Source: Pseudanabaena sp. FACHB-2040
GTDB taxonomy: Bacteria > Cyanobacteriota > Cyanobacteriia > Phormidesmidales > Phormidesmidaceae
Reading direction: 5' to 3'
NCBI RefSeq assembly: GCF_014696715.1
Contig: NZ_JACJQO010000011.1
Span: 1-64,000, forward strand
DNA: 64,000 nt
Both the position numbers and the translations under genes were made by a program. Below are positions 45,562 to 47,746 of the stretch, piece by piece (positions within the stretch are counted from its first letter, which is position 1; each line of letters begins with the position of its first letter). The notes beneath the pieces are model-generated. The model had not been told where the DNA came from. It saw only the letters and a program-made list of their open reading frames with translations, and made no database searches.

Positions 45562-46074
45562 CTAAGTATTCAGAGCTCGCATCCCTGCCAGCGCCCCCAT
45601 CACTAAGCCCAGCGCCACTAGGGGAGCCGATTCGGGAGTAGAGACAGGTTCTTCAGAAACTTTCTCGTACACGTACCCCGGGGTTGAAAACCCTGTAAAG
45701 CCGCCTGGGACAGTATCTTGAGGCGCTAGTGTAACGAGCTGGGGTCTTCTTCCTCCAAAGGGGCCTCCAGAAGGCTCCAATGTTGAAAACTCTGAACCAC
45801 TTAAGGTTGTACCCGAGAGATAAGCGCCATCAAACTCCAGCCCAGTGAGGTCGATTAGCGTGGTCTGAGTAGAGCTAAAAGTGCCGGAAAGAACGCGACC
45901 AATAGTCCCCTCAACCTCAAATGTGCCCGATATCTCGTAGAAATCGAACTGAGGTTCGGTGAAACTATATTGGACTGCCGCAGATATGCCTGCATTGACA
46001 ATAGCGAAAGCAGTCGTAGTGCCAATGCCAAGGGCAACTGCTAACTCGAACCCGCTCCAGGTCGCTTTGCTCAT
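45562..46074 (-). CDS. PEP-CTERM-like secreted protein
   Basis: 170 aa. N-terminal signal-like helix (FELAVALGIGTTTAFAIVNA) and a beta-rich middle (ISGTFEVEGTIGRVLSGTFS, TLIDLTGLEFDGAYLSG). The C-terminus VSTPESAPLVALGLVMGALA plus a terminal arginine is a PEP-CTERM exosortase sorting signal of the PExxPL type common in cyanobacteria. The middle domain is of unknown function. Convergent with the PstS-like gene. Exosortase itself is not in this window. Confidence 0.75.
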   Translation of the reverse strand: MSKATWSGFELAVALGIGTTTAFAIVNAGISAAVQYSFTEPQFDFYEISGTFEVEGTIGRVLSGTFSSTQTTLIDLTGLEFDGAYLSGTTLSGSEFSTLEPSGGPFGGRRPQLVTLAPQDTVPGGFTGFSTPGYVYEKVSEEPVSTPESAPLVALGLVMGALAGMRALNT

Positions 46075-46216: not shown

Positions 46217-46450
46217 CTAGTCTTCCACAATCACGCCCAGGTAAAGCCGGACAAATTCCTTTGCTGCCAGAGGGTTCAGAGTTTTAAGCGCTTGGGTAAT
46301 TTCTACAATTGCTTCAGAAGAGGGTTCTCGCTGGTTATGAACCCACTTGAAAACAGCCGAGCGATCAATCTCCAGTGCAACCGCCAGTTTATTTTGGCTG
46401 ATGCTGTAGGTATTTAGAACCTGCTTCAATGCTTGGCTTGCCCTTCCCAT
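46217..46450 (-). CDS. XRE-family helix-turn-helix regulator
   Basis: About 77 aa from ATG 46450. ALKQVLNTYSISQNKLAVAL, EIDRSAVFKWVHNQREPSSE and AIVEITQALKTLNPLAAKEF are a classic XRE/Cro helix-turn-helix with SQNKLA as the first helix and DRSAVFKW as recognition helix. The longer frame (to 46507) reaches into the palindrome and is not preferred. It is divergent from the small cassette at 46557-47185, and the palindrome between them (46486-46507) is the expected operator; autoregulation is likely. Confidence 0.82.
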   Translation of the reverse strand: MGRASQALKQVLNTYSISQNKLAVALEIDRSAVFKWVHNQREPSSEAIVEITQALKTLNPLAAKEFVRLYLGVIVED

Positions 46451-46485
46451 GCCTTTGATCGTGACAAAGGATGGTAGATGGGTAA

Positions 46486-46507
46486 ATGTTGTCTGATTAG
46501 ACAACAT
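46486..46507. promoter_or_regulatory. Perfect 22-bp operator-like palindrome between divergent genes
   Basis: ATGTTGTCT-GATT-AGACAACAT has two 9-base arms that are exact reverse complements. A further half-site AGACAACATT follows at 46535-46544, just after a TATAGT -10-like box (46512-46517). The palindrome covers the upstream side of the XRE gene and of the opposite gene. Confidence 0.8.
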
Positions 46508-46556
46508 CGGCTATAGTCTTTTTGTGGTCGGTTTAGACAACATTAAGGCTTTCAAA

Positions 46557-46796
46557 ATGGAAGAATTTATTCCCAACACCGAAACCTATACAGTCCCGCC
46601 CAGTGAGTCTGCACCCGTTGAACCGATTCGTGAACCTGTTCGCATCATGGTTACAGGCTCTGCAATCGGCATTGAACTGATCATCAAAGTGCTGCATCGA
46701 CTGGGGTTTGCAGAACCAAGAGCCTGGAGCAAGCCGCAACTTGACCCCAACAGCGGCAAGCTCGTGAGCATAATGACCAAATGGATTCGATATTGA
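46557..46796 (+). CDS. Small conserved-looking protein, unknown
   Basis: 79 aa from ATG 46557. The second half, PVRIMVTGSAIGIELIIKVL followed by HRLGFAEPRAWSKPQ and LVSIMTKWIRY, resembles a group of short cyanobacterial proteins of unknown function (VRIMVxGxxxG...W...MxILTKxxxx). Divergent from the XRE regulator across the palindromic operator; its stop overlaps the next frame by 16 bases, which suggests translational coupling. Confidence 0.6.
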   Translation: MEEFIPNTETYTVPPSESAPVEPIREPVRIMVTGSAIGIELIIKVLHRLGFAEPRAWSKPQLDPNSGKLVSIMTKWIRY

Positions 46797-46942
46797 GTTG
46801 GGTGCGAATAAGGCGGCAGGTGCGATCGCACCCCATCTCTGTGTTTAACGCGAAAGAACTTCGTAAGCTACAAGCGTTAGTGGCTGAAAACCAGGAGAAA
46901 TTGTTGGAGGCTTGGTATGGGTACTTTGGCGATTCGGATTGA
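46781..46942 (+). pseudogene. Truncated DUF4160 gene (C-terminal part only)
   Basis: An ATG frame of 53 codons. Its last 35 residues, ISVFNAKELRKLQALVAENQ then EKLLEAWYGYFGDSD, match the C-terminal helix and WYGYFG-like end of DUF4160 proteins. The N-terminal half of that domain (the HFHA motif region) is replaced by a basic HIP1-rich stretch (VRIRRQVRSHPIS). It overlaps the preceding gene by 16 bases and the DUF2442 gene by 26 bases, the order usual for DUF4160-DUF2442 pairs. Confidence 0.55.
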
Positions 46943-47185
46943 TGAGCGGATTAAGGATGTTTGCTTTACTGAGGATACAATTAGCGTGGATTTGATGGAT
47001 GGGCGGAGTATTACGGTTCCGCTAGTGTGGTACCCCGCCTATTAAATGCAACACCGGAACAGCGATCGCAGTGGAAAATTGCTGGTGGTGGCTATGGTAT
47101 TCATTGGGAAGAAATTGATGAAGACCTCAGCACAGAAGGAATGTTGAGAGGCTCACCTGCGCCAAGGGCAGTATTACCAAGTTGA
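46917..47185 (+). pseudogene. DUF2442 gene interrupted by one frameshift
   Basis: The first frame reads IRIDERIKDVCFTEDTISVD then LMDGRSITVPLVWYP and stops at 47043. One base out of frame the match continues: PRLLNATPEQRSQWKIAGGG, YGIHWEEIDEDLSTEGML and RGSPAPRAV to a stop at 47183-47185. Joined, this is a complete DUF2442 protein (VPLxWYPRLLxATPEQRxxWxxxGxGxGIHWxxxDEDxSxxGLL). The break is at a CCCC run (47033-47036), consistent with one lost C, a sequencing error, or a -1 programmed shift. Confidence 0.75.
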
Positions 47186-47746
47186 AATTGAGATGCGATC
47201 GCACTTCAAGATGACTGCGATCGCACTAGTTCTACTCTTCAACTCGACCCAAATAATCAAAGTTGGTGACGATTATAGAAATTATCTATAGGTTTTCTCA
47301 GGCGAGGATTTTGCTTAGCCCATTGTTAGAGGCTCTATTTATGAGAGTTTTGGTTAAAAATAGTAAGCTCAATGAGAAGCATTAACCTAGCTAAATGTCT
47401 CTTTATACTCTGCAATATTCATTGATAGTTGTTGATTGTTGCGTTTGCTTCTTAACTCAAAAAAGAAGATTATTCGACAATTAGCAGAAAAAATGTAAGC
47501 ATCATTTAAGTATCACACCCAGATGATGGACGAATCTAAAGGAGTTGACTGAAACATTTCACATAGCCACAAGACTTCTTCCTAAATTGTAAGAACTCCG
47601 CATTACTTCTTGATGAAGAAATAGTCTACTCGGATACTGAATTTTCTCGAAAAAGCGCCTAAATAAGATGCTTATCAGGTCCTGTCGCCAGAGTTCAGCT
47701 GCAGGCACATTCGGGCTTTCTTGTTGACTTTTTCCGAAGAGAGCTT
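47186..47746. other. AT-rich region upstream of glgP
   Basis: About 560 bases, notably AT-richer than its surroundings, probably containing the glgP promoter. Two HIP1 sites lie near 47195 and 47218. An opposing minus-strand frame (47559-47771) overlaps the start of glgP and has no recognisable features. I see no repeat or operator. Confidence 0.45.

Follow-up and report, generated by a model that had tools for sequence, protein, structure and literature searches.

Does the compact gene array at positions 46217-47185 of the 64,000-nucleotide stretch of Pseudanabaena sp. FACHB-2040 DNA analysed here (the window) represent a single operator-controlled module, or a smaller regulatory unit next to gene debris? 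The original prediction placed four pieces opposite one XRE regulator and took the small protein, DUF4160 and DUF2442 to belong with this regulator in one cassette. The positions of the open reading frames and the overlaps of 16 and 26 bases are reproduced, but the count of four does not correspond to four whole genes. Since only the C-terminal part of DUF4160 is present and DUF2442 is frameshifted, the pieces beside XRE are one intact gene and fragments of two decayed genes. As judged from comparison of this locus with its paralogues and with related genomes, we consider it quite probable that the locus is a two-gene repressor module in which XRE, acting on pair-specific operators, would shut the promoter of the small-protein gene, that the small-protein family has two regulatory modes, and that the DUF pieces are debris.

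The XRE regulator and the small-protein family

The XRE/Cro-C1 regulator is encoded on the minus strand (46217..46450), and its HTH_3 domain (PF01381; E 4e-6) scores 27.2 bits against a curated cut-off of 23. Translation most likely starts at 46450 (MGRASQALKQ...), as suggested by the open frames of paralogues and by an alignment whose rows are cut near the Met in question; in L043, L045, L023, L050 and other paralogous loci, a stop codon is located 4-10 codons ahead of the equivalent Met. The first 19 codons of the ORF as given earlier (46451-46507) are probably untranslated. With this probable start of XRE, the operator falls inside the 106-bp gap between the two divergent genes. On the other side, xre adjoins a 170-aa ORF on the minus strand (45562-46074) with a hydrophobic stretch at its end, the product of which may be exported.

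The additional small protein of the original prediction is confirmed as a 79-aa ORF on the plus strand (46557..46796). Searches of Pfam, NCBIfam, PADLOC and PHROGs that allowed E values as high as 1 gave no match to it. Scans of 30 members of its family, the proteins of which are about 75-105 aa long, brought up three families in Pfam and three in NCBIfam, each of these being matched by one member only, with E 0.014 or worse. A sequence search of solved structures yielded chance-level rows only (best E 0.19), and a plasmid search no match. Word searches of the literature, which cannot find families by sequence, brought up nothing recognisable as this small-protein family or its leader RNA in the titles and abstract openings listed. 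The predicted structure (pLDDT of 90 or more for 52 of the 79 residues, pTM 0.61) has a small strand-helix-strand core. The structural match lists obtained with Foldseek, run against the PDB and viral models, and with VIA-align contain no convincing match from which to assign a function (best PDB Z 3.7, E 0.5; best viral E 0.06), although a family outside these lists may be related.

In a single-sequence search with a limit of E 1, the own genome of the strain (6.28 Mb) yields 60 matches to the small protein; a family profile with a limit of E 0.001 yields 74, the window protein being counted both times. When the profile was iterated over the 60 fetched loci, 61 ORFs passed this second limit, a few of which are damaged. 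Members are present in all 24 searched genomes of the taxonomic family to which the strain belongs, with 1-36 matches in the genomes other than its own, in 5 of the 15 genomes searched outside that family, and in 23 of the 292 genomes of a phylum sample, for which copy numbers are lower bounds because at most 18 candidates were scored per genome. This is a very large cyanobacterial small-protein family that is absent from the protein-family libraries used here.

Operators and gene pairing

The palindrome between the two genes (operator 1, ATGTTGTCT-GATT-AGACAACAT, 46486..46507, no strand assigned) had been described as a perfect one of 22 bp; in fact, 20 of its 22 positions agree with the reverse complement. 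An imperfect copy (86% identity), operator 2, is located at 46523..46543, again without strand; its right half AGACAACAT is exact, so that this copy has a single good half only, and the extra half-site noted previously is indeed found, as AGACAACAT at 46535. On the plus strand of the whole 64-kb window, ATGTTGTCT occurs once and AGACAACAT twice, all three within the gap between XRE and the small gene. The candidate promoter of the small gene, TTGTCT-N17-TATAGT (46489..46517, plus strand), is a match to the consensus only, of a kind that arises 1.6 times on average in a shuffled 1.2-kb stretch; TATAGT or a similar box is present at the equivalent position in orthologues. With the promoter-like box at this place, operator 1 lies over the predicted -35 box and operator 2 at the expected start point of transcription, so that the candidate promoter is found between and under the operators.

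Orthologues that share the XRE recognition helix carry the same site as operator 1. Many of the 45 distinct gaps between XRE and small-protein genes have a TATRAT-like box with a copy of a pair-specific repeat on either side. In a test for repeated half-sites applied to the 37 gaps of 60-150 bp (the other 8 being excluded by length), 21 exceed 95% of 40 shuffles, with a mean score of 4.97 versus 3.24, whereas 16, including those of the window orthologues L152, L153 and L146, fail. The half-sites go with the helices: IDRSAVFKW pairs with ATGTTGTC in four loci and the window, ISRANVGRW with ATGTCAC in all eight loci, and IERTVVYRW with ATGTGAAC in all four; in L117, a paralogue in another family with the helix IERTVVWRW, the top repeat is AATGTGAA. 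Thus, the comparison shows the operator sequence changing together with the putative XRE recognition helix among orthologues, a co-change that was judged by eye among related sequences, where common descent could also give such a pattern. Because the operator copies flank the -10 box and because operator and recognition helix co-vary among orthologues, XRE is most likely the repressor of the small-protein gene.

The pairing of the two genes extends far beyond the window. The own genome has 10 XRE copies, of which 9, distributed over 8 loci, stand back to back with a small-protein gene; at L023 (G000:C2:219404-219952, G000 being the own genome), a tandem pair of XRE paralogues lies beside a single small-protein gene. 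In the own genome and relatives together, 52 of 77 XRE rows are paired, or 48 of 73 without four duplicate rows; an XRE is scored as paired when a family gene lies divergently at most 900 bp away, and the second member of an XRE tandem is scored likewise. With a cut at 119 bits, which was picked after inspection of the list, 33 of 35 rows at or above it are paired, and 23 of the 38 non-duplicate rows below it are unpaired.

Orthologue-like loci were also identified in named genomes (41 loci, in Nodosilinea, Leptolyngbya, Phormidium tenue, Tildeniella, Shackletoniella and others), at least four contigs of which probably come from genomes already included in the XRE and relatives searches. When the divergent strand was scanned in the 34 loci with enough upstream DNA, 16 best matched the XRE type of the window, 15 another HTH type and 3 neither; one of the 15, L305, also carries the window type. 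Four of five proteins of the other HTH type score above the cut-off of an HTH family in Pfam and one (L301) below it. The HTH counts, here and for the own genome, are lower bounds because the profile for the other type was built from four loci that it later scored and, in the own genome, missed L059. The conserved unit is, judging by gene neighbourhoods, the divergent pair of XRE and the small protein. The original claim of an XRE with its own operator opposite a small-protein gene is therefore borne out, with the pair found across many genera and the operator tracking the recognition helix; of the association proposed for the 79-residue protein, its recurrence with a divergent XRE holds, and the link to DUF4160 and DUF2442 does not.

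In its HTH_3 domain above the cut-off, its palindromic intergenic operator and the co-change of helix and operator, this regulator resembles other XRE/Cro-C1 regulators; it differs from them in that the predicted target is one gene of an uncatalogued small-protein family and that the operators differ between pairs.

Leader RNA in family members lacking XRE

In the own genome, most copies of the small-protein gene without XRE share a DNA unit that begins at a promoter-like box and ends close to the stop codon. Paralogous copies with 85-94% identity usually diverge past the end of this unit, the exceptions being L047/L061, which share 1131 nt, L026/L036, similar to +84, and L024/L041, similar to +49. 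Within the unit, a leader of ~200-340 nt with a common fold precedes the gene, and the covarying RNA comprises ~180 nt. In a set of 16 leaders (A4), 98.4% of cells pair and 46 cells show two-sided changes (15.9 in shuffles and at most 5 when slid); in 17 others (A5), the corresponding figures are 96.5% and 54 (15.7 and at most 22). For the A4 leaders, one of five covariation measures, further pair types, is not above shuffles (491 of 500 shuffles as high).

With E 1e-5 as the limit, a covariance model (R1) built from the first set of 16 detects a leader in 37 of the 60 own-genome loci (L017-L076), 21 of these being outside the model, and none in the eight own-genome loci with XRE, the window included. 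Among relatives, 10 of 28 loci have a leader match with E below 0.01, and in whole-genome searches 23 of 39 genomes do, counting the own one; several of the weak R1 matches in the individual loci are on the reverse strand relative to a genuine leader. A selection of 76 loci picked for their XRE or HTH link, six of them from the own genome, gave one match with E below 0.2, in L301, located 1.2 kb off the gene. Eight further loci (L025, L026, L027, L035, L036, L052, L058 and L071) form the MITS leader class with similar shapes, of which R1 matches only L025, marginally (E 0.018), the other seven being without any match; this class is possibly a diverged second leader type.

Of the 20 leader places fetched, 17 came from relatives, including 7 near-copies in one genome (G022), and 3 lie in the own genome outside the initial 60 loci. 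The leader directly precedes a family member in 18 of 19 places (in L247, the gene is split over two frames), and the 20th is cut by the contig end. L249 (G000:C5:339477-339660) combines a leader match of E 3.6e-38 with no family ORF in the next 700 bases, and could be either an orphan leader or a decayed family copy. The seven dispersed leader-gene copies in G022 (L250-L256) encode near-identical proteins, with many silent DNA differences and unrelated flanks, a pattern suggestive of amplification with selection on the protein.

The strand that follows the core of the leader (strand B) can pair with the stretch ahead of the start codon; this pairing beats shuffles in all 33 leaders (p 0.04 or less each), although in L032 a wrong segment was used as B. 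For 13 of the 17 A5 leaders, the alternative helix, between B and the 5' strand of the core, lies below its shuffles at p 0.05 or less; the same holds for only 1 of the 16 A4 leaders, for which B was cut short in the test. In the A5 consensus, the two helices of B adjoin, so that they compete only where the second extends into the first. From these pairings, we infer that the leader could act as a switch, with B joined either to the ribosome-binding site or to the 5' strand of the core.

Cis-regulatory leader RNAs of bacteria include, for example, riboswitches and autogenous leaders of ribosomal proteins. The family leaders resemble these in being covarying, multihelix RNAs in which the final strand is able to pair with the ribosome-binding site. 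They differ in having no Rfam match at the gathering score, in the lack of such a leader at the window copy, and in their position ahead of a single protein family in the 18 places mentioned above. With Rfam 15, tRNA was the only hit in 20 own-genome loci; in 10 loci of relatives, searched at E up to 1, three hits were obtained, all weak, of which one falls within a leader (L090; 28.1 bits, with 55 required). Metabolite switches often stand before several kinds of genes. The tight link of this leader to one protein family would be expected under autogenous control.

Regulatory modes, downstream remnants and alternatives

Taken together, the 60 own-genome loci comprise 8 with the window XRE type, 2 (L059 and L046) with divergent Cro/C1-type genes of another kind (HTH_26, E 1.8e-15 and 6.2e-20, respectively) and 37 with a leader; of the remaining 13, eight belong to the MITS leader class, and in five, neither a regulator nor a leader was found. 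In none of the 60 do a divergent Cro/C1-type gene and a leader match occur together. On a tree of 79 proteins, built from 85 columns and with weak support (36 of 76 inner branches open), 37 XRE-linked and 23 leader-linked members are separated by 2 changes; L080, L083, L095 and L098, which have no leader match, were left aside in this count, and the number of changes is the same with them. The comparison thus shows two regulatory branches in the small-protein family, one apparently governed by a divergent repressor and the other by a leader RNA.

In the branch to which the window belongs, XRE dimers would bind the two copies of the pair-specific inverted repeat, over the -35 box and at the start point, and thus cover the promoter of the small gene from both sides and keep it shut. 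Operator 1 is also upstream of xre, so that its occupation may limit the synthesis of XRE itself. Upon some signal, XRE would be released from the operators and the small protein made. The other mode, adopted by most of the own-genome copies, would rely on the structured 5' leader, the last strand of which is able to pair with the ribosome-binding site, in place of a divergent Cro/C1-type repressor with its operators. Repression by XRE, autoregulation and switching of the leader are what we infer from these arrangements. A more speculative and rather doubtful extension is that the small protein spread as a cassette of promoter, leader and gene, reaching up to 40 copies per genome, with each protein controlling its own mRNA through a new class of leader, and that the window branch swapped the leader for a divergent repressor of the Cro/C1 type and an operator private to it.

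The alternative that XRE and the small protein form a type II toxin-antitoxin pair, with the small protein as the toxin and XRE as antitoxin and autorepressor, appears unlikely. It would account for a divergent HTH gene with repeated operators and for the fact that one HTH type can replace another next to the same small protein, and one locus, L271, adjoins a BrnT toxin gene (PF04365, E 1.1e-22) which, upstream of 834, takes the place of the HTH regulator. However, a regular partner is not observed, as a search for divergent Cro/C1-type genes with two profiles and two Pfam checks found them at only 10 of the 60 own-genome loci; the small protein has no PADLOC match; and the two genes face apart. 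Type II toxin-antitoxin pairs usually form one operon. Nothing observed here marks the small protein as a toxin. Because most family members in the own genome have no recognised partner, a toxin role of the small protein is possible but not favoured over the repressor module.

Downstream of the small gene, the plus strand carries the C-terminal part of a DUF4160 (DhiT-type) gene (46844..46942), which matches positions 40-64 of the 65 in PF13711 with E 1.4e-4, below the cut-off, followed by a frameshifted DUF2442 (DhiA-type) gene in two frames: fragment 1 (46917..47045) covers positions 1-30 of the 72 in PF10387, and fragment 2 (47027..47185) positions 29-71 (E 3.4e-15). Neither domain is whole in a single reading frame, and the own genome has no DUF4160 match at E 0.001. 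In 5 of 16 relatives' loci with DUF4160 or DUF2442, the DNA aligns to the window at 73-79%; the similarity to these intact operons begins at 46844 in two of the five and at 46901-46904 in three, and ends at 47158-47163. Several GCGATCGC palindromes, which we take to be HIP1-like, are scattered in and around this region (46818-46831, 47062-47072 and 47191-47226).

The two DUFs were originally said to behave like a toxin-antitoxin module whose role is not proved. The first part stands; the second does not, given that the available text of PMC8198452 reports experimental support for such a system, DhiTA of Dickeya dadantii, and a similar tandem pair on a Thermus plasmid is hypothesised to be a toxin-antitoxin system in the accessible part of PMC12724237. 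The window fragments represent the same two Pfam families in the same order as DhiTA as described there (PMC8198452), but both genes are broken and unlinked to the pair of XRE and the small protein. A comparison, across 39 genomes, of 73 DUF2442 rows with 71 XRE rows (75 less the four weakest) placed only the two window fragments within 20 kb of an XRE, the next-closest distances being 20.2 and 21.4 kb. By these gene and domain comparisons, the pieces are decayed remnants of an unrelated, predicted DhiTA-type toxin-antitoxin pair.

It is quite improbable that the DUF2442 gene is still alive, through programmed frameshifting or because the break is an assembly error: both halves retain profile matches, and the frames on each side of the break are open, but DUF2442 is in one frame in intact relatives (e.g., L201), and a frameshift would not explain why the partner DUF4160 lacks most of its N-terminal part. 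Nor does it seem at all probable that XRE and the small protein descend from a CI/Cro-like immunity switch of a phage and persist as its relic; the divergent promoter region with repeated operators is similar to such switches, and XRE has weak matches to phage repressor PHROGs (best E 6e-6), but a scan of viral contigs with the XRE alignment, run through one peptide pattern, confirmed 0 of 42 pattern matches, and the plasmid search gave no match to the small protein. Finally, the four-part cassette of XRE, small protein, DUF4160 and DUF2442 working as one module, attractive for its tight spacing and overlaps, is rejected as hardly tenable, with its DUF genes truncated and frameshifted and DUF2442 near XRE at only one of the 71 XRE positions compared, that in the window.

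On the preferred reading, a repressor module of XRE and the small protein, the array is no longer a doubtful cassette but a regulator-operator pair that can be tested and that comes with natural variants of specificity. Should the small protein have spread as a cassette as outlined above, the diverse operator-repressor pairs would insulate the paralogues from one another. The 60-74 matches of the small protein within one genome call for explanation, and the analysis draws attention to a covarying leader RNA for which no Rfam model gave a match. If this leader works as a switch, the question of which ligand or protein partner it responds to can be tested directly.
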